64,000 bases of DNA from Thiobacillus sp. 65-29 (lineage in GTDB: Bacteria; Pseudomonadota; Gammaproteobacteria; Burkholderiales; Thiobacillaceae), in the NCBI GenBank assembly GCA_001899775.1, contig MKWN01000038.1, forward strand, positions 1-64,000, read 5' to 3'. Below the pieces are notes generated by a model that had not been told where the DNA came from, did no database searches, and saw only the letters and a list, made by a program, of their open reading frames with translations. Numbering within the stretch: position 1 is the stretch's first letter; every line of letters starts with the position of its first letter. Positions 32,152-41,087 of this stretch are shown in pieces. The position numbers were made by a program, and so were the translations under genes.

Positions 32152-32712
32152 ATGCGCCTCCTTGCCCTGACCCTGCTGGCCGCGGGGCCGCTCGCCGCGG
32201 CCCCGGTGACGCCGAGCGTCGACCCCGAGACCGGCCTTGCCACCTGGCAGACCGAGTCGGCGGGCGCGCAGATACGGCTCACCCAGATCGGTCCGGACCA
32301 GGCGCGCGCCTTCTATCAGGCGCGCGGCTTTGCCGCCGCGGCGGCGGAGCGCTACGCGGCGGAATGCGTGTTCATGACCGTGGTGCGCAACGTCGGCGAC
32401 ACGCCGATCCGCCACCGTCTGGCCGACTGGCGCTACGTCACGGCGGACCAGGCGCCGCGCACGATCCGCAGCAAGGCCGAATGGGAACGTCTGTGGCGAC
32501 GCCTGGAGGTACCCGAGGCGGCGCGCATCGCGTTCAACTGGGCGCAGTTTCCCGCGACGCAGACCTTCGCGCCCGGCGACTGGAATCAGGGCATGACGAC
32601 CTACAGCGTGCCGCGCGGCGGCGAGTTCGACCTGCGCGTCACGTGGCGCGCCGGCGGCGCGACGCATTCAACCACCCTCGAAAAAGTGAGATGTGCCAAT
32701 GACGCTTCGTGA
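32152..32712 (+). CDS. Uncharacterised exported protein
   Basis: A 186-aa protein with a short signal peptide (MRLLALTLLAAGPLAAA) and no family that I recognise. The mature part has a Trp-rich beta-like character (LATWQTESAGAQIRLTQIGPDQARAFYQARGF; FNWAQFPATQTFAPGDWNQGMTTY). Its stop overlaps the start of the TlpA-like gene by 14 bp, so the two are probably made together in the periplasm. A role linked to periplasmic redox folding is only a context guess. Confidence 0.75.
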   Translation: MRLLALTLLAAGPLAAAPVTPSVDPETGLATWQTESAGAQIRLTQIGPDQARAFYQARGFAAAAAERYAAECVFMTVVRNVGDTPIRHRLADWRYVTADQAPRTIRSKAEWERLWRRLEVPEAARIAFNWAQFPATQTFAPGDWNQGMTTYSVPRGGEFDLRVTWRAGGATHSTTLEKVRCANDAS

Positions 32713-33324: not shown

Positions 33325-34374
33325 ATGAGGATCGTCAGCAGCGACATTCAGCTTGCCAGCCAGCACGCCGCCATCAGCCGGGATACGGTGAGGGAATCGC
33401 TGCGCGTGTGGGCGCGCCCGCCCGCGGACAGCGGCCGGTCCGGCAGCGCCAACGGCCTGCCCGAGCCGGACACCACCCTTCGCATATCCCCCGAGGCGCG
33501 CAGCGCGCTAAAGACCGCCCCCGCCAGCAAAGCCGATCCGGACGAGGCCCTCGAACTCGATCTGCGCTACCTGCTCGTCAAACGCATGGTCGAACAACTC
33601 ATCGGTCACGAAACCAGGCATCTGCGCGCGTCGGATCTACGCGCCGCCCCGCCGGCAGCCCCGCCTGCTCCGGCAACGGCTGGCGCGTCCGCGCCGCAGG
33701 CGGCCGGATTCGGTATCGAATACGAGCGCCACGAAAGCCACTACGAGGCGGAACAGACGCAGTTCTCTGCACAAGGCATGGTGAAAACGGCAGACGGCCG
33801 CGCCATCCGCTTCCAGCTCGAACTCGCCATGAGCCGGACATATTACCGCGAGGAAACGGTCAGCGTGCGCGCGGGTGATGCCGCGGCGAAAGACCCGCTG
33901 GTCATCAATTTCGCTGGCCAGACCGCGCAATTCGACGGCGCCCGCTTCTCGTTCGATCTCGATGCCGACGGCGTAGAGGACTCCATCGCCTTCGTCGCAT
34001 CCGGCAGCGGTTTCCTCGTCCTCGATCGCAACCGCGACGGGATCATGAACGACGGCAGCGAACTGTTCGGCCCGCGCACCGGCGACGGCTTCCAGGAACT
34101 GGCGCAGCACGACGCGGACGGCAACGGCTGGATCGACGACGCCGATGCGGTGTTCAGCGAACTCCAGGTCTGGACCCGCGACGCCGAAGGCCGGGACCGG
34201 CTCACCCCCCTCGCCGCGATGGGTATCGGCGCAATCGGTCTGGCGCACGTCGCCACGCCCTTCAGCCTGAAGACCGATGACAACGCACTGCTCGGCCAGG
34301 TCCGCAGCAGCAGCGTGTACCTGAATGAAAACGGCACGGTCGGCAGCGTGCAGCAGATCGATCTGGTCGTCTGA
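33325..34374 (+). CDS. Acidic protein with EF-hand-like calcium-binding loops
   Basis: A 349-aa protein without a signal peptide. The N-terminal half is low-complexity with an Ala/Pro-rich linker (about residues 108-128). The C-terminal half has Asp-rich loops: DLDADGVEDSIAF, DRNRDGIMNDGSELFG and DADGNGWIDDADAVF, which look like EF-hand or dockerin-type Ca2+ sites. The block LDRNRDGIMNDGSELFGPRTGDGF recurs in large secreted or regulatory proteins of proteobacteria. The function is unknown; it stands alone between the tlpA-like gene and the convergent lipB. Confidence 0.75.
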   Translation: MRIVSSDIQLASQHAAISRDTVRESLRVWARPPADSGRSGSANGLPEPDTTLRISPEARSALKTAPASKADPDEALELDLRYLLVKRMVEQLIGHETRHLRASDLRAAPPAAPPAPATAGASAPQAAGFGIEYERHESHYEAEQTQFSAQGMVKTADGRAIRFQLELAMSRTYYREETVSVRAGDAAAKDPLVINFAGQTAQFDGARFSFDLDADGVEDSIAFVASGSGFLVLDRNRDGIMNDGSELFGPRTGDGFQELAQHDADGNGWIDDADAVFSELQVWTRDAEGRDRLTPLAAMGIGAIGLAHVATPFSLKTDDNALLGQVRSSSVYLNENGTVGSVQQIDLVV

Positions 34375-34392: not shown

Positions 34393-34992
34393 TCAGGCGT
34401 AGACCCCATCCAGCAAGGCACGGGCAAGCGCCTGTCCGGCCTCCACCGGCAACAGGCTCACACCGAGATCGCGACATTGCGTCACCCGCATCCCCGCGTA
34501 TCCGCACGGGTTGATGGCGGCAAACGGAGCAAGGTCCATGTCGACGTTGAGCGCGAGGCCGTGATAGGTGCAGCCACGCTTCACCCGCAGGCCGAGCGCG
34601 GCGATCTTGGCGCCCTCGACGTACACGCCGGGCGCGCCCGCCAGGCGTTGCGCCGCCACCGCGTGTGCGGCCAGCAGCTCGATCACCGCCTGCTCCATGC
34701 GCGCCACCAGTTCACGAACGCCGTAGCCGCGCCGGCGCAGGTCGACCAGCACATAGATGACGACCTGTCCCGGCCCATGGTAGGTGATCTGTCCACCGCG
34801 GTCGATCGGCACCAGCGGAATGTCGGTCGCCGCGAGCAGGTGCTCGCGCCTGCCCGCCTGTCCCAGCGTATACACCGGCGGATGCTCGAGCAGCCACAGT
34901 TCGTCCGGCGTGTCGGCATCGCGCCGTGCGGTGAAATCCTGCATCGCCCGCCAGGTCGGCTCGTACTCGACGCACCCCAGGCTGCGCACCAC
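34393..34992 (-). CDS. lipB: Octanoyltransferase
   Basis: LipB transfers octanoate from ACP to lipoyl-dependent proteins. The family blocks are [13 protein letters not shown] at the start, [32 protein letters not shown] (catalytic Lys) and [13 protein letters not shown] (catalytic Cys). The start is uncertain: GTG at 34992 lies just before the conserved VVRSLG, while GTG at 35034 overlaps the upstream stop and would translate a heptamer repeat as extra N-terminus. The shorter form (199 aa) is listed. Confidence 0.93.
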
Positions 34993-34999
34993 CGCCTTT

Positions 35000-35030
35000 C
35001 CCTGACCCCTGAATCCTGAATCCTGATCCC
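35000..35030. repeat. Heptamer-type tandem repeat between the ybeD-like gene and lipB
   Basis: CCTGACC-CCTGAAT-CCTGAAT-CCTGATC reads as a short tandem of degenerate CCTGAAT heptamers at the ybeD-lipB junction. A close copy sits at 62637-62671 at the junction of the P-loop gene and metA. The first 16 bases are identical in both places. Confidence 0.7.
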
Positions 35031-35294
35031 TCACAAGGCCATCTTCACCCACGGATGCGCAGTGATGTCGCGGTACAACGCATCCAGTTGCGCCTTCGAC
35101 GTCGCGCGCACCACCACAGTGACGGACAGATAGGTGCCGTTGCGCGAGGCGCGCATCTCCACGGTCTCGGGCCTGAAATCGGGGGCGTGGCGCAACACCA
35201 GCCCGACCATGGTCTGGGCGAAGTCGTCGCGCCGCTCACCCATGATCTTGATGGGGAAGTCGACCGGGAATTCCAGCAGCGTGTCCTCGCTCAT
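35031..35294 (-). CDS. ybeD: YbeD/DUF493-family protein
   Basis: An 87-aa ACT-like small protein ([63 protein letters not shown]). The family is encoded beside lipB in many proteobacteria and is thought to be regulatory, with no proven activity. The ATG at 35294 overlaps the stop of dat by 4 bp. Confidence 0.93.
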
Positions 35295-36142
35295 GCCCGC
35301 ATCACCTCGCGCTTGAAGGTCTGGTAGAGCGCATCCATGCGCTGCGCGAGCGGCCCCGGCACGCCGGAGCCCACCGGCACGCCGTCGAGCGTGACGATGG
35401 CCATGATCTCCCGCGTCGACGAGGTCATCCACAACTCGTCGGCGCCGCGCACCTCGGCTTCGGCGAGGGCGCGGACTTCATGCGCAATGCCATGCGCCTG
35501 CGCCAGTTCCAGCACCACGTCGTAGGTGATGCCGGTGAGCATGAGACGGGACGGCGGCGGCGCACGCAGCACGCCGTCCTTCACCACGAAGATGTTGCTC
35601 GCCGCGCCTTCGCTGAGGAAACCGTCGCGCAGCATCACGGTTTCCGCACAGCCCGCGTCGATCGCCTGCTGGCGCAGCAGGATATTGGCGAGCAGGGAAA
35701 TTGCCTTGATGTCGCAGCGCTGCCAGCGGTAGTCGACCGCCGTCACCGCGCACACCCCGGCGGCCTTCTGTTCGGCGGTCGCGGTGACCAGCGGCTGGGT
35801 GAACATGAACACCGTCGGCGCCGTATTCTGGGGAAAGGGATGATCGCGCGGCGCGACGCCGCGGGTGACCTGGATGTAGACCGACTGATCGTCCGCGTCG
35901 TAGTGCGCCACCAGCGTTCCGATCAGCTCACGCCATGCGTCGGCGGAATGCGGATTGGCCAGACGGATCCCGTCCAGACTCGCCTGCAGCCGGCGCAGGT
36001 GGTCGTCGAGGCGAAACGGCTTTTTCGAATACACCGGCACCAGTTCGTACACGCCGTCGCCGAAAACGAAGCCGCGGTCGAGCACGGGTACCGTGGCCTC
36101 GGCGAGCGGCAGGAAGCGGCCGTTGAGATAGGCGTCGTTCAT
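35291..36142 (-). CDS. dat: D-amino-acid transaminase-like class IV PLP aminotransferase
   Basis: A 283-aa fold-type IV PLP enzyme. The N-terminal block is MNDAYLNGRFLPLAEATVPVLDRGFVFGDGVYE. The PLP Lys is in RCDIKAISLLANILLRQQA, and a Glu-containing ETVMLRDGFLSEGAASNIFVVKDG block binds the cofactor. The sequence looks more like D-alanine transaminase than IlvE, supplying D-Ala or D-Glu. Its position next to a D,D-carboxypeptidase homologue and the lipoate genes is common in betaproteobacteria. It overlaps both neighbours by 4 bp. Confidence 0.88.
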   Translation of the reverse strand: MNDAYLNGRFLPLAEATVPVLDRGFVFGDGVYELVPVYSKKPFRLDDHLRRLQASLDGIRLANPHSADAWRELIGTLVAHYDADDQSVYIQVTRGVAPRDHPFPQNTAPTVFMFTQPLVTATAEQKAAGVCAVTAVDYRWQRCDIKAISLLANILLRQQAIDAGCAETVMLRDGFLSEGAASNIFVVKDGVLRAPPPSRLMLTGITYDVVLELAQAHGIAHEVRALAEAEVRGADELWMTSSTREIMAIVTLDGVPVGSGVPGPLAQRMDALYQTFKREVMRA

Positions 36143-37254
36143 CGCGCGAAGAACAGCCGGATCGAATCCCAGCCGCGGCCGAAAATGCCCGCCACGGACA
36201 CGTCGTGCAGCGCCGCCAGCGGAAATTCGCCAAGCGTCTTGCCGTCGAGCGTCAGCCTCAGCGTGCCGAGCGACTGCCCGCGGTGAACGGGCGCCACCAC
36301 GGGCTGCTGCGTGATCACCTCGGCGCGGATGCGCCCGGCGCTACCACGCGGCGCGAGCAGATGAAAATCCTCGGTGAAACCGATGCTCACGCTGGCGCGC
36401 GTGCCCCGATACAGGCTCACGACCTTGACCGGCTGCTGCGCGCGATAGAGCAGCACGCTGTCGAAATTCTCGAAACCGTAGTTCAACAGACGCAAAGCGT
36501 CCTGGGTGCGCTGCGCGTCGGAGCGGCTGCCCAACACCACGGCGATGCGACGCTGCTCGCCGCGCTGCGCCGACGCCACGATGCAATACCCCGCCTCGGT
36601 GGTGCGGCCGACCTTGAGGCCGGCGACGGTACGATCGCGCCACAGCAGACGGTTGCCGTTGTAGTAGGTGATACCCTTGAAAGCCAGTTCCTTCTGTGCG
36701 AAATACGCCATGCGTGCGGGAAAGTCGCGTGCCAGCGCGCGCGCCAGACGCGCGAGATCCCCCGCGCTCGACTCGTGGCCGGGCTCGCTGAGTCCGGTGG
36801 CGTTCATGAAGCGGGTGCGGGTCAGACCGAGCCGCTTCGCCTCGCGGTTCATGCGCGCGACGAACGCCGCTTCGCTGCCATCGCTCCCCACCACCAGGGC
36901 AAGCGTCGCATCGACCGCCGACTGCAGCAGCATCGCCTGGATCAGCGTATCCACGCTCACTTCCTCGCCAGGCTTGAGGAACACGCGCGCGCCGTCGACC
37001 TGCGTCGCCGCGTCCGGAATCTTGATCGGCTCGACGAGCGTGAGCTTGTTCTTCGCCAGGTCGCCGAACAGGACGTAAGCCGTCATCAACTGCGTCAACG
37101 ATGCCGGTGCCAGCGGCAGATCCGCCTGGTGCGAGCCCAGCTCACGCCCGCTGGCGCTGTCGATCACGGTCCACGCGCGCGCCACGATACCTGCGGGCTG
37201 CGCCCACGCCGGAGCGGTAAACAGGAGCAGCAGCCCCAGCCAGATGCTTCTCAT
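36139..37254 (-). CDS. PBP5-like (peptidase S11) protein with altered active-site motifs
   Basis: The overall fold and length (371 aa from ATG 37254, signal peptide MRSIWLGLLLLFTAPAWA) match periplasmic D-Ala-D-Ala carboxypeptidases of the PBP5/6 group, including the C-terminal beta domain and amphipathic tail (WDSIRLFFAR). The three catalytic motifs are all changed. SxxK is SLTQ at residues 52-55 (Lys to Gln), SxN is SAV at 112-114, and KTG is KVG at 214-216. Ser52 remains. Without the general-base Lys, normal acylation is unlikely, so this may be a structural or regulatory pseudoenzyme. The frame is intact, which argues against simple decay. Confidence 0.9.
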   Translation of the reverse strand: MRSIWLGLLLLFTAPAWAQPAGIVARAWTVIDSASGRELGSHQADLPLAPASLTQLMTAYVLFGDLAKNKLTLVEPIKIPDAATQVDGARVFLKPGEEVSVDTLIQAMLLQSAVDATLALVVGSDGSEAAFVARMNREAKRLGLTRTRFMNATGLSEPGHESSAGDLARLARALARDFPARMAYFAQKELAFKGITYYNGNRLLWRDRTVAGLKVGRTTEAGYCIVASAQRGEQRRIAVVLGSRSDAQRTQDALRLLNYGFENFDSVLLYRAQQPVKVVSLYRGTRASVSIGFTEDFHLLAPRGSAGRIRAEVITQQPVVAPVHRGQSLGTLRLTLDGKTLGEFPLAALHDVSVAGIFGRGWDSIRLFFAR

Positions 37255-37270
37255 GCCTCGATTGATTCCT

Positions 37271-38098
37271 CTAACCATCACGCCTCACCAGGACTGCATT
37301 GAGATCGAGACGTTCCCTTACCCGCGCACGGTCGGCGAGTGCCTCGTCGTCGCTGGAATACGGCCCAAGCTGCACGCGATGCAGGCTGTCGCGCAGCACC
37401 ACGCGCGTGCGCTCCGGGTCGACGGCGAGCTCGCGCGCGAGCCGTGCCACCAGTTGCTGCGCGTTGTCGGCACGCGAAAAGGCGCCGATCTGCAGGAACA
37501 CGCCTTCGGACAGCGCCTCGCCCCGGGTGTCGTAGGCGTCCGGGTCGAGACTTTCCACCCGCACCCGCGCGCTGCCGCGCGCGACCAGGCCAAGCCTGTG
37601 CGCAGCGGTGTACGACACATCGACGAGGCGGTTCTTGTGGAAGGGGCCACGATCGTTGATGCGCACCACCACCGAGCGTCCGCTGTCGAGCGCGGTGACG
37701 CGCGCATAGCTGGGGATCGGCAGGGTGGGATGCGCGGCGGTCATCGCGTACATGTCGTACAGTTCGCCGGACGCGGTTTTCTTGCCATGGAAGCGGCGGC
37801 CGTACCACGACGCCAGGCCTTCCTCGCGGTAGCCACCCGCGCTGGACAGCGGCGTGTAGGTATTGCCCAGCGCGACATAGGTGCGGTTGGCAAAGCGGTG
37901 CAGCGGCTCGCGGCGCGGTACGGCATCGGGCACGGCATCGAGGTCGACGGGCGGATTCGCGTCCGGGCCATCATCCAGGTAATAGCCACCACGGGCGCTC
38001 CCTGCCGGCTTGCCGACCGGCGGCGTGGTCCCGCAGGCACCGACGGCCAGGGCAATCCCGGCCACGACGAGAAGACGCAAGGTGTGCATGGGGGTCAT
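37271..38098 (-). CDS. rlpA: RlpA-type septal-ring lytic transglycosylase with SPOR domain
   Basis: A 275-aa lipoprotein: signal peptide with lipobox VGAC, then a double-psi beta-barrel domain (EGLASWYGRRFHGKKTASGE; RVTALDSGRSVVVRINDRGPF) and a C-terminal SPOR domain (VFLQIGAFSRADNAQQLVARLA) for denuded septal peptidoglycan. RlpA cleaves glycan strands lacking stem peptides. In this operon it precedes the PBP5-like gene, whose product would normally act on stem peptides. ATG at 38098 or 38089 are both possible. Confidence 0.94.
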   Translation of the reverse strand: MTPMHTLRLLVVAGIALAVGACGTTPPVGKPAGSARGGYYLDDGPDANPPVDLDAVPDAVPRREPLHRFANRTYVALGNTYTPLSSAGGYREEGLASWYGRRFHGKKTASGELYDMYAMTAAHPTLPIPSYARVTALDSGRSVVVRINDRGPFHKNRLVDVSYTAAHRLGLVARGSARVRVESLDPDAYDTRGEALSEGVFLQIGAFSRADNAQQLVARLARELAVDPERTRVVLRDSLHRVQLGPYSSDDEALADRARVRERLDLNAVLVRRDG

Positions 38099-38107
38099 TC
38101 TAGCCGC

Positions 38108-39208
38108 TCACGTCTTGTTGAGCTGGCGGTGCGTCGCCACGCTCATGACAATGCCGACGCCGAGCAGCAGCGTAACGAGCGCGGTGCCACCGTAGCTCAT
38201 CAGCGGCAGGGGCACACCGACCACCGGCAGGATGCCCGACACCATGCCGATGTTGACGAACACGTAGGTGAAGAGATTGAGACTGAGCGTGGCCGCCATC
38301 AGGCGCCCGAACAGGGTCGGCGCGCGCGCGGCGATGGTGAGCCCGCGCGCCACCAGCGCGAGATGAAGCGCCACCAGCAGCACCATGCCGACGTAGCCGA
38401 ATTCCTCGCCGAATACGGCGAACACGAAATCGGTGGTGCGCTCGGGAATGAAGTCGAGCTGATTCTGCGTGCCCTGCGCCCAGCCCTTGCCGAACAAACC
38501 GCCCGAGCCGATCGCGATGGTCGACTGGATGATGTGATAGCCGGCGCCCAGCGGATCGGTCGACGGATCGAGCAGGGTCAGCACACGACGTTGCTGATAG
38601 TCGTGCAGGAAGCCCCACGCCAGCGGCAGGCTGGCCCCAGCCAGCACCCCGCCGCCGAGAATGAACTTCCAGGGCAGGCCGGCAAAGAACAGCAGGTAAA
38701 CACCCGACACGCCGATCATCATCGCTGTGCCGAGATCGGGCTGACGCAGAATCAGCAGGAAGGGCAGGGCCAGCAGGCCGGCCGCGGCAAGATAGTGTTT
38801 CACCCGCAGCACCGCTTCGTTGTGCTGGAAATACCAGGCGAGCATCAAGGGCAGCGCCAGCTTCAGGAGTTCCGAGGGCTGGAACGCCACGACACCCAGG
38901 TCGAGCCAGCGTCGCGAGCCGTTGCGCACCTCGCCGAACAGCGCCACCGCGACCAGCAGTATGACGCCCGTCACATAGAGCGGCATCCCCACCCGGGACA
39001 GCAGGTGCGGTGGCACGTTGGCCATCACCACCATCGCGCCGAGGGCAAGACCGATATTCATCAGGTGGCCGCTGATGCGCGCCGCACTTTGCCCCGACGC
39101 GCTCGCCACCACCGCCACGCTGATCCCCAGCAGCACCAGCACGAGCAGCAACAGAACGGGATCGAGATGGCTCAGGCGGCGTGCGATCCAGTGGCTAATC
39201 CGCGGCAT
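38108..39208 (-). CDS. mrdB: RodA, SEDS peptidoglycan glycosyltransferase
   Basis: A 366-aa polytopic SEDS protein. The start is ATG 39208, which overlaps the end of mrdA by 14 bp. Blocks include DLGTAMMIGVSGVYLLFFAGL, where the Asp is at the SEDS catalytic site, and TDFVFAVFGEEFGYVGMVLLVALHLALVARG near the C-terminus. It polymerises glycan strands for rod elongation together with PBP2, encoded directly upstream, and MreBCD. Confidence 0.95.
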   Translation of the reverse strand: MPRISHWIARRLSHLDPVLLLLVLVLLGISVAVVASASGQSAARISGHLMNIGLALGAMVVMANVPPHLLSRVGMPLYVTGVILLVAVALFGEVRNGSRRWLDLGVVAFQPSELLKLALPLMLAWYFQHNEAVLRVKHYLAAAGLLALPFLLILRQPDLGTAMMIGVSGVYLLFFAGLPWKFILGGGVLAGASLPLAWGFLHDYQQRRVLTLLDPSTDPLGAGYHIIQSTIAIGSGGLFGKGWAQGTQNQLDFIPERTTDFVFAVFGEEFGYVGMVLLVALHLALVARGLTIAARAPTLFGRLMAATLSLNLFTYVFVNIGMVSGILPVVGVPLPLMSYGGTALVTLLLGVGIVMSVATHRQLNKT

Positions 39209-41087
39209 TGTCGTCTCCGAATTGCATGTCGCCCGGGCGCTTGCCGGTGAGGTAATAGTCGAACACGGCGCGTGCGATCGGCGCGGCGGTGCCGCTGCCC
39301 GATCCACCGTTTTCGACCATCACCGCCAGCGCCAGCGTGGGCTTGTCGGCTGGCGCATAGGCGATGAACAGGGCGTGGTCACGATGCTCGCGTGCCAGCC
39401 TGCTGGCGTCGTAGCGCGCGCCCTGCTTGATCCCCACGACCTGCGCGGTTCCGGTCTTGCCGGCGATGGCATACGGCGCCCCCGCCGCCGACGCGGCCGC
39501 GGTACCGCCCGGCCGGGTGACGTCGAGCATGCCCTGGCGCACCACCTCCAGGTGCGCCGGTGCGATCGCCAGCGCGGGCCGGGCCGGTGGCGGTGCAACC
39601 GGCGCCCATGTCCGCGTCACCGGATCGCGCACGGCCGCGACGAGACGCGGTGGCACCGGCCGGCCGCCGTTGGCGAGCATGGCGACTGCCGCGGCGAGTT
39701 GCAGCGGCGTGGTGAGATGGTACCCCTGGCCGATGCCGGCGATTACGGTCTCGCCCGGATACCAGGGCTTTTTCCAGCGGCGCTGCTTCCATTCGCGGGA
39801 TGGCAGCAGGCCGGCCGATTCTCCTTCAAGATCGATGCCAGTTTTCTCGCCAAAACCGAATTGCGCGAGAAAATCATGCATGCGATCAATACCCATGTCG
39901 ACCGCGAGTCGGTAGTAGTACGTGTCGCACGACTGCGCGATCGACCTGCGCAGGTCGACGACGCCATGTCCGCCACGCTTCCAGTCGCGGAACTGGTGGC
40001 TGCTGTTGGGCAGCATGAAATATCCCGGGTCGACAATGCTGTCTTCCGGGCGGCGCACACCGAGTTCCAGTCCGGCCAGCGCCATGAAGGGCTTGATGGT
40101 CGACCCCGGCGGATAGATGCCGCGCAGCACACGGTTCACCATCGGGCGCGCAGCCGATTCGTTGAGTTCCTTCCACGTATCGGGATCGATGCCGTCGATG
40201 AACAGATTGGGGTCGAAGCCGGGTTTCGATACCAGCGCCAGCACGCCGCCGGTATTGGGATCGAGCGCCACCAGCCCGCCAAGGTAATCGCCGAACGCAT
40301 GCTCGGCCACCGCCTGCAGCTCCGCGTCCAGGTACAGTCGCAGATCCTTGCCCGGCACCGGCGGAATGCGCGACAGCACGCGCACCGCGCGGCCGCCGGC
40401 GTCGGTCTCCATCTGGTCGAAACCGGTGCGCCCGTGCAGCAGGGCCTCGTAGCTCTGCTCGAGCCCGGTCTTGCCGATGTGGACGCTGCCGCGATAGTTC
40501 TGTTCCCGCCCGCCTTCGCGCAGCGTGGCGAGATCGCGATCGTTGATGCGGCCGATGAAGCCGACCACGTGCGCCATCCCCGGCCCCGCGCGGTAGTTGC
40601 GGAACAGGCGCGCCTTGACCTCCACGCCCGGCAGGCGATAGCGGTTGGCCGCCACGATCGCCACCTCCTCGTCGCTCAGCCGGCTTTTCAGCGGCACCGT
40701 CTCGAATTCATTCGACTCGGTGAGAAGGCGCCGGAAGCGGCGCAACTGACCGGGCGTGATCTCGATCAGCGCCTGCAGTTCCGTGAGCGTGCGTTCCAGG
40801 CTCGCCATCTGCGCGCGGTTGATTTCCAGCGTATACGCGGAATAGTTGTCGGCGAGAATCCGCTCGTTGCGGTCGAGGATGAGGCCGCGATGGGGGGCGG
40901 CGGGCACCAGCGAAATGCGGTTGCTCTCGGCGCGCTGGACGTAATACTCGTGCTGCACGCGCTGCAGGTAGTAGCCACGCACCAGCAGCGCCGCCGCGAG
41001 CAGCGCGACGAAGCCCGCGCCGACTTTCAGGCGCAGTTGGAAGCGCGCCAGTTCGCGGTCGAGGTTCTTCAGCGAGGTGATGGCCAT
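39195..41087 (-). CDS. mrdA: Penicillin-binding protein 2 (transpeptidase)
   Basis: A 630-aa class B PBP with one N-terminal TM (about residues 20-45), a pedestal domain and a transpeptidase domain. The three motifs are intact: STIK in GIYPPGSTIKPFMALAGLE, SCD (SxD form) in SIAQSCDTYYYRLA, and KTG in AIAGKTGTAQVVG. This contrasts with the degenerate motifs of the PBP5-like gene 2 kb away in the same run. It is coupled to rodA by overlap. Confidence 0.96.
   Translation of the reverse strand: MAITSLKNLDRELARFQLRLKVGAGFVALLAAALLVRGYYLQRVQHEYYVQRAESNRISLVPAAPHRGLILDRNERILADNYSAYTLEINRAQMASLERTLTELQALIEITPGQLRRFRRLLTESNEFETVPLKSRLSDEEVAIVAANRYRLPGVEVKARLFRNYRAGPGMAHVVGFIGRINDRDLATLREGGREQNYRGSVHIGKTGLEQSYEALLHGRTGFDQMETDAGGRAVRVLSRIPPVPGKDLRLYLDAELQAVAEHAFGDYLGGLVALDPNTGGVLALVSKPGFDPNLFIDGIDPDTWKELNESAARPMVNRVLRGIYPPGSTIKPFMALAGLELGVRRPEDSIVDPGYFMLPNSSHQFRDWKRGGHGVVDLRRSIAQSCDTYYYRLAVDMGIDRMHDFLAQFGFGEKTGIDLEGESAGLLPSREWKQRRWKKPWYPGETVIAGIGQGYHLTTPLQLAAAVAMLANGGRPVPPRLVAAVRDPVTRTWAPVAPPPARPALAIAPAHLEVVRQGMLDVTRPGGTAAASAAGAPYAIAGKTGTAQVVGIKQGARYDASRLAREHRDHALFIAYAPADKPTLALAVMVENGGSGSGTAAPIARAVFDYYLTGKRPGDMQFGDDNAAD

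Follow-up and report, generated by a model that had tools for sequence, protein, structure and literature searches.

Can a penicillin-binding protein that has lost its catalytic motifs still be kept by selection and, if so, for what purpose? No carboxypeptidase of Gram-negative bacteria has been studied more than PBP5, and yet why cells need it is still debated. In Escherichia coli, its loss has little effect by itself (PMC5596342). Lineages that discarded catalysis and kept the protein would allow the question of what the catalysis is for to be separated from the question of what the protein is for. A candidate is found in a 64,000-nucleotide stretch of DNA from Thiobacillus sp. 65-29 (the window), where a first-pass annotation had pointed out a PBP5-like gene with all three catalytic motifs altered.

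A complete PBP5 architecture at the ancestral dacA locus

The gene, its features and its neighbours all lie on the minus strand:

34393–35052, minus strand: lipB
35031–35327, minus strand: ybeD-like gene, part of the dacA-dat-ybeD-lipB run
35291–36142, minus strand: dat, class IV aminotransferase
36139–37254, minus strand: dacA ortholog, a motif-degenerate PBP5-type protein of 371 residues (from open reading frame, Pfam, orthologs and locus)
36145–36186, minus strand: predicted C-terminal amphipathic helix, residues 357–370, a membrane anchor by homology with PBP5
36607–36615, minus strand: motif 3, residues 214–216, KVG for KTG
36913–36921, minus strand: motif 2, residues 112–114, SAV for SxN
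37090–37101, minus strand: motif 1, residues 52–55, SLTQ for SxxK (Lys to Gln, codon CAG)
37201–37254, minus strand: likely Sec signal peptide by eye, residues 1–18, cleavage at about AWA/QP
37271–38098, minus strand: rlpA (DPBB_1 and SPOR domains), the upstream neighbour
38108–39307, minus strand: rodA/mrdB, start codon uncertain
39195–41087, minus strand: mrdA (PBP2), motifs intact

The name ybeD follows the E. coli gene order, and lipB is presumably right by its sequence and the same order. The initial description of the locus holds up well: SLTQ, SAV and KVG replace SxxK, SxN and KTG at residues 52, 112 and 214, the gene lies between dat and rlpA, and the mrdA product keeps its motifs (STIK, SCD and KTG, by eye in the translation). 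Pfam recognises Peptidase_S11 (E 9.7e-58, 195.9 bits against a cut-off of 27.6) followed by PBP5_C (E 2.5e-17, 63.2 bits against 21.2). A PDB sequence search up to E 0.001 gave 35 different sequences, those of PBP5/6 from E. coli and Pseudomonas aeruginosa having E values no higher than 2.6e-74. In the HMMER alignment with PBP5 of P. aeruginosa (4k91), residues 20–356 are matched by residues 9–345, each 337 long, and the motif spacing is therefore that of a real PBP5, as had been claimed. The AlphaFold model has a mean pLDDT of 91.5, with low confidence over the predicted signal peptide; its closest PDB fold is 3ita, E. coli PBP6 (Z 44.2, rmsd 1.8, 339 residues), and other PBP5/6 entries are near. 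Architecture and predicted fold are those of a complete PBP5. The two ends of the protein, described earlier as intact, are indeed in place, the signal peptide as judged by eye and the C-terminal helix as a prediction that is conserved within Thiobacillus. From an abstract perspective, the domain pair of an active S11 carboxypeptidase is present, and SxxK, SxN and KTG are absent. The protein scores below the NCBIfam equivalog cut-offs, though above the Pfam cut-off for carboxypeptidase models, so that annotation pipelines will label such genes carboxypeptidases.

Is this gene the dacA of its lineage? The order rodA-rlpA-dacA-dat-ybeD-lipB recurs across Thiobacillus loci as far as the stretches reach, and the sister genera also have rlpA-dacA-dat, with an intact dacA. 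In the tree, the gene falls within the family's own dacA group, as sister to that of genus g6 (support 98/92), on a long stem branch (0.90). Gene order and tree placement identify it as a dacA ortholog at the ancestral dacA locus. The same gene run contains mreC, mreD, mrdA and rodA. Between lipA and lipB, two opposite-strand open reading frames (33325–34374 and 32152–32712, both plus strand) are without a Pfam match; the former is Asp-rich, with stretches that by eye resemble calcium sites.

Motif loss and constraint across Thiobacillus

Among 56 Thiobacillus genomes searched, 55 contain a gene of the window type, the others being 67 to 92 % identical to that of the window. It is missing only in G034 (81 % complete) and is in pieces in G036 and in the fragmented genome G019, where we take the split for an assembly fault. 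The motif counts cover 53 full-length orthologs, each from a different genome and one of them that of the window. Alignment with neighbours, proposed along with the first observation, finds the altered motifs conserved: motif 1 reads SLTQ in 52 orthologs and SLTH in one; SxN is absent from all 53, with no Asn in any (SAS 36, SAG 11, SAV 3, SAT 2, SAA 1); and KTG is likewise absent from all 53 (KVG 45, KAG 8). Lys55, Asn114 and Thr215 are thus replaced in every ortholog, Ser52, Ser112, Lys214, Gly216 and Arg249 are invariant, and Gln55, Ala113, Arg217 and Tyr198 are nearly fixed as new residues. Chance or assembly error can be rejected as a source of the altered motifs, because they occur in 53 orthologs from separate genomes.

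Outside the genus, 23 PBP5-type sequences from the 61 other genomes of the family sample are all intact, as read through the first two motifs, and KTG is present in one additional fragment. Genus g6, the nearest one, combines SAN with intact SxxK and KTG, which implies that the Gly-to-Ala step within SxN came first. Going by these orthologs, the losses of the SxxK Lys, the SxN Asn and the KTG Thr are fixed genus-wide, and they are best explained by dacA having become a pseudoenzyme before Thiobacillus diversified, with vertical inheritance since.

How specific is this combination of changes? A DNA pattern scan of genome contigs for PAS-x-T-Q-x-M-T, which needs Ser and Gln and is blind to other losses, gave 84 stretches, assigned by score to the Thiobacillus type (47), to other S11 proteins with SxTQ (five) or to proteins that are not S11 (32). 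The five S11 proteins (L115, L148, L156, L179, L188) have intact SxN and KTG, so the Lys-to-Gln change alone occurs elsewhere; SxTQ with all three motifs lost was seen in the scan in Thiobacillus only. One of the five, in a Sulfuricaulis MAG (L179:2359-3426, minus strand), has SLTQ with intact SAN and KTG and lies directly behind rlpA; its relatives L189 and L190 are intact, with SLTK, which points to a recent and independent loss at that locus. L148 and L156, from rumen Clostridiales MAGs, and L188, which resembles them, have SITQ with SAN and KTG intact and may form a conserved SxxQ group outside Proteobacteria. In L115, from a Rhizobium sp. Q54 MAG, the SLTQ S11 domain shares one open frame with a C-terminal part that by eye resembles a trypsin-type serine protease.

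Might the gene simply be decaying, retained only for its operon position and its four-base overlap with dat? The dacA stop codon does overlap the dat ATG, and the gene stays in the dat-ybeD-lipB run in many lineages. Its substitution pattern is nonetheless that of a maintained protein. At site 55, the codons are CAG in 47 orthologs, CAA in five and CAC (His) in one, so that synonymous change continues while Gln is kept; Ser52 is encoded by TCG (47), TCC (4) and TCA (2). By the method of Nei and Gojobori, which is simple and ignores base composition, dN/dS is 0.07–0.21 in the 14 closest pairs and has a median of 0.21 over the 1311 of 1378 pairs with dS of 0.1–1.5, compared with a median of 0.27 over 153 pairs for the intact PBP5 paralog of the genus (C16; see below). 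In 136 pairwise comparisons drawn from 17 genomes, the pseudoenzyme averages 73.2 % identity and the intact paralog 72.0 %, with the pseudoenzyme the more conserved of the two in 78. The low dN/dS, the silent substitutions at the Gln codon and a level of conservation like that of an intact paralog together show purifying selection acting on the protein. With the frame open in 53 of 53 orthologs and constraint retained, we reject the idea of a pseudogene. Operon coupling would not conserve protein sequence at this level (73 % genus-wide), nor would it keep the anchor helix and the scaffold, and an informal look at the opposite frame gave no sign of an overlapping coding frame behind the selection data; retention for position alone is thus highly improbable. 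The earlier proposal of selection as a non-catalytic protein gains support from the conserved altered motifs, from the constraint at the protein level and from the intact second PBP5.

In 99 intact PBP5s, 75 alignment columns reach 93 % conservation or more; Thiobacillus keeps 52 of these and changes 23, among them Lys55, Ser80, Gly107, Gly113, Asn114, Glu122, Gln197, Arg200, Asp211 and Thr215. Entropy is 0.26 at 19 pocket sites and 0.60 over domain I, and 44 of 10000 random site sets are as low, with the caveat that the sites were picked by hand and may include residues kept for folding. The pocket sites have been changed and yet are maintained in their changed state.

Such a pocket might belong to a protein that has stayed an enzyme or accepts beta-lactams, in which Ser52 is the nucleophile and, for example, Lys214 and Ser112 stand in for the missing Lys, giving a changed, slow or new activity. 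The five invariant residues and the four nearly fixed new ones look as if the pocket were maintained, and retention of Ser52, Ser112 and Lys214 means that some chemistry or beta-lactam acylation is still possible. SxxK enzymes, however, require their Lys for acylation, and this Lys is replaced in all 53 orthologs together with Asn114 and Thr215. Residues that are present in 95–99 of the 99 intact PBP5s are also gone (Glu122, Arg200 and, in all but one, Gln197), and position 114 is free to vary (Ser, Gly, Val or Thr). We consider retained activity unlikely.

Other D,D-peptidases and recurrence in the order

The genome has three S11 genes: the window gene, a PBP5 beside pyrD (contig C16; SLTK/SGN/KTG) and a PBP7-type gene (contig C44; SITK/SDN/KTG). 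A PBP4-type (S13) protein (contig C43) has STMK, SSN and KTG by eye. The intact dacA/dacC that was to be looked for elsewhere in the genome does exist in the form of C16, a distant relative of the window gene. Its type is present in 55 of the 56 Thiobacillus genomes, missing in G027 (75 % complete), and is intact in all 18 genomes in which it was read. The best tree places C16 alongside gammaproteobacterial PBP5s (100/99), whereas the window gene falls in its own family (98/92). C16 was thus probably acquired from Gammaproteobacteria, and its placement suggests that an acquired enzyme took over catalysis. Alternatively, C16 may have arisen by duplication of dacA within Thiobacillus, in which case the two copies would reflect ordinary divergence of paralogs rather than an acquired replacement. 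An AU test does not reject the constraint of a single clade for the two Thiobacillus copies (p 0.072), whereas the best tree separates them with the support values given, the window gene being sister to g6, and C16 resides at a different locus, beside pyrD. We regard a duplication as doubtful.

A degenerate PBP5 is not peculiar to Thiobacillus, and we reject that notion. We sampled 150 genomes of the order and read a full-length PBP5-type protein in 139 of them; 119 of these have intact copies only, and 20, from nine families, have a copy with changed motifs. Of the other 11 genomes, G069 was left out and ten gave PBP7-scale weak matches or none (G514, G523, G524, G557, G566, G567, G569, G571, G606, G627). 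The changed copies come from the family of the window (f1) and from f184 (three), f199 (four), f200 (two), f201 (three), f204 (one), f206 (three), f219 (two) and f225 (one), and the sample also holds intact members of f184, f200, f204, f219, f225 and f1. Changes range from a single Ser-to-Ala substitution in SxxK (G594) to alteration of all three motifs, as in G500 (GLSG/GAH/YAT) and G547 (DLVQ/AAE/MSS). The dacA locus, recognised by adjoining dat and/or ybeD and nearly always lipB, harbours 18 of the 19 changed copies outside Thiobacillus, the exception being G526 (f225); upstream rlpA was recognised only in G505, among the subset of changed-copy loci queried. A tree of 102 proteins, to which a long-branch warning applies for f200 and f201, demands at least eight state changes, five of them forced by well-supported (starred) branches. 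Among changed copies, dN/dS is 0.05 to 0.32 in six of seven measured pairs, and one pair is saturated.

Which parts of the protein survive in these lineages? In the 80 intact rows, 55 columns are conserved to 93 % or more; of these, the changed lineages keep 29 and release 26. The released columns cluster around the motifs (51–55, 80–92, 107–126, 197–199 and 210–222). The kept ones include Asp32, Met57, Leu104, Ala116, Met135, Asn136, Ala139, Gly143, Asp166, Asn201, Leu204, Gly212, Leu256, Pro322 and, mostly, the anchor residue Arg360. Release at the motifs with retention of the scaffold is as expected if catalysis was dropped and the scaffold retained.

Proposed role and known counterparts

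How might a PBP5 without catalytic motifs be of use? Loss of the motifs, retention by selection and recurrence at the same gene mean that the protein probably has a job that does not involve catalysis. We propose, with a probability of about 0.6, that it is a membrane-anchored, non-catalytic PBP5 that acts as a scaffold or regulator of other cell-wall enzymes, its catalysis having been passed on. Export, anchoring, the lack of catalysis and the scaffolding or regulatory action are all parts that we infer. We envision a scenario whereby the protein is exported and then anchored in the inner membrane through the C-terminal helix, where it would be incapable of the acylation-deacylation cycle of a D,D-carboxypeptidase and might serve as a scaffold or regulator in the zone of cell-wall synthesis, contacting the C16 PBP5, PBP4 or the elongasome encoded alongside it. 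The carboxypeptidase work would now be done by other D,D-peptidases. Perhaps the protein also binds stem peptides and leaves them uncut, given that the pocket residues Ser52, Ser112, Lys214, Gly216 and Arg249 show no variation among the 53 orthologs. In several other lineages, Ser52, Ser112 and Lys214 are lost, so a role shared with Thiobacillus, if any, cannot be ligand binding through these three. The effects of E. coli PBP5(S44G) and the gonococcal DacC make a non-catalytic action plausible (PMC5596342, PMC6365954, PMC10269775). A useful scaffold role is not a given, because inactive E. coli PBP5 is mis-localised (PMC2909392) and harmful when overproduced.

Alternatively, binding of stem peptides might be the whole function: the protein would be a pure sensor that holds D-Ala-D-Ala ends uncut and reports or localises synthesis, with no need for a protein partner. 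Lys214, Ser112 and Arg249 are retained, the chosen pocket sites vary little, and active E. coli PBP5 localises through its substrate (PMC2909392). Yet without the SxN Asn and the KTG Thr, the contacts with the substrate ought to be weaker, E. coli PBP5(S44G) has ceased to follow the substrate (PMC2909392, PMC5596342), and pocket residues are also lost in other lineages. We find a pure sensor improbable as an account of the gene.

The preferred reading, that of a scaffold or regulator, can be extended to the dacA-locus PBP5 of Proteobacteria in general. Conceivably, catalysis and an ancestral scaffold job are separable in this protein, and the scaffold alone was kept after a takeover of catalysis, repeatedly in the order; the residues kept in all degenerate lineages would then mark the scaffold surface, and the Thiobacillus pocket would have been rebuilt as a non-hydrolysing binder. 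We offer this extension tentatively, as a possibility that falls short of an even chance.

Thiobacillus is free-living and non-pathogenic, and it provides a case outside Neisseria in which a pseudoenzyme is fixed genus-wide next to an intact second copy; the recurrence in nine families amounts to a comparative experiment. A degenerate protein of the PBP5 type was known before, namely the Neisseria DacC (PMC6365954). In the open-licence literature, we found neither a degenerate PBP5 described for Thiobacillus nor any mention of recurrence in the order. As far as that literature goes, four things are new: that the degenerate state is fixed in Thiobacillus, that it is paired there with a second, intact PBP5, that the Ser/Ser/Lys/Arg pocket is kept, and that such losses recur at one locus in at least eight further families.

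How does the protein compare with its counterparts? With E. coli PBP5 and PBP6 (DacA, DacC) it shares Peptidase_S11 and PBP5_C, the fold, the C-terminal helix and a common dacA gene neighbourhood, but the three catalytic motifs and further active-site residues are replaced. The changed PBP5s of f184, f199, f200, f201, f204, f206, f219 and f225 are likewise full-length and mostly lie beside dat, ybeD and lipB. By the tree, they have separate origins; they often lack the nucleophilic Ser or the KTG Lys, both of which Thiobacillus keeps, and, unlike in Thiobacillus, most of the genomes concerned show no intact second PBP5 among the copies read.

Another counterpart is the laboratory mutant PBP5(S44G) of E. 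coli, in that both would be folded, anchored PBP5s devoid of activity. The mutant causes bulging by its presence and not by its inactivity, absence of PBP5 doing little, and its dimer signal is altered (PMC5596342); inactive PBP5 is mis-localised and active PBP5 finds its place through the substrate (PMC2909392). The mutant is artificial and harmful without active PBP5, whereas the Thiobacillus protein is a natural variant that keeps the Ser and has lost the Lys.

A natural parallel is DacC of Neisseria gonorrhoeae (NGO_0443), which a review describes as lacking SxxK, SxN and KTG, with the gene retained (PMC6365954, citing Obergfell et al. 2018). The same review reports that it is needed together with DacB for piliation, suggests that it is a scaffold and links the change to the turn from rod to coccus (PMC6365954); in another study, DacC was not seen by Bocillin labelling (PMC10269775). 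Going by this description, the two proteins are alike in being of the PBP5/6 type, with three altered motifs and a gene that is kept. The Thiobacillus protein differs in retaining Ser52, Ser112 and Lys214, a comparison with DacC as known by description, and its host differs in that the gene run also contains mreC, mreD, mrdA and rodA and that there is a second PBP5 with intact motifs. Thiobacillus is rod-shaped, and with these four genes in the same run as the degenerate dacA, motif loss does not need a coccal shape. Given that the sister genera of Thiobacillus are intact, a shared degenerate ancestor with Neisseria DacC is unlikely.
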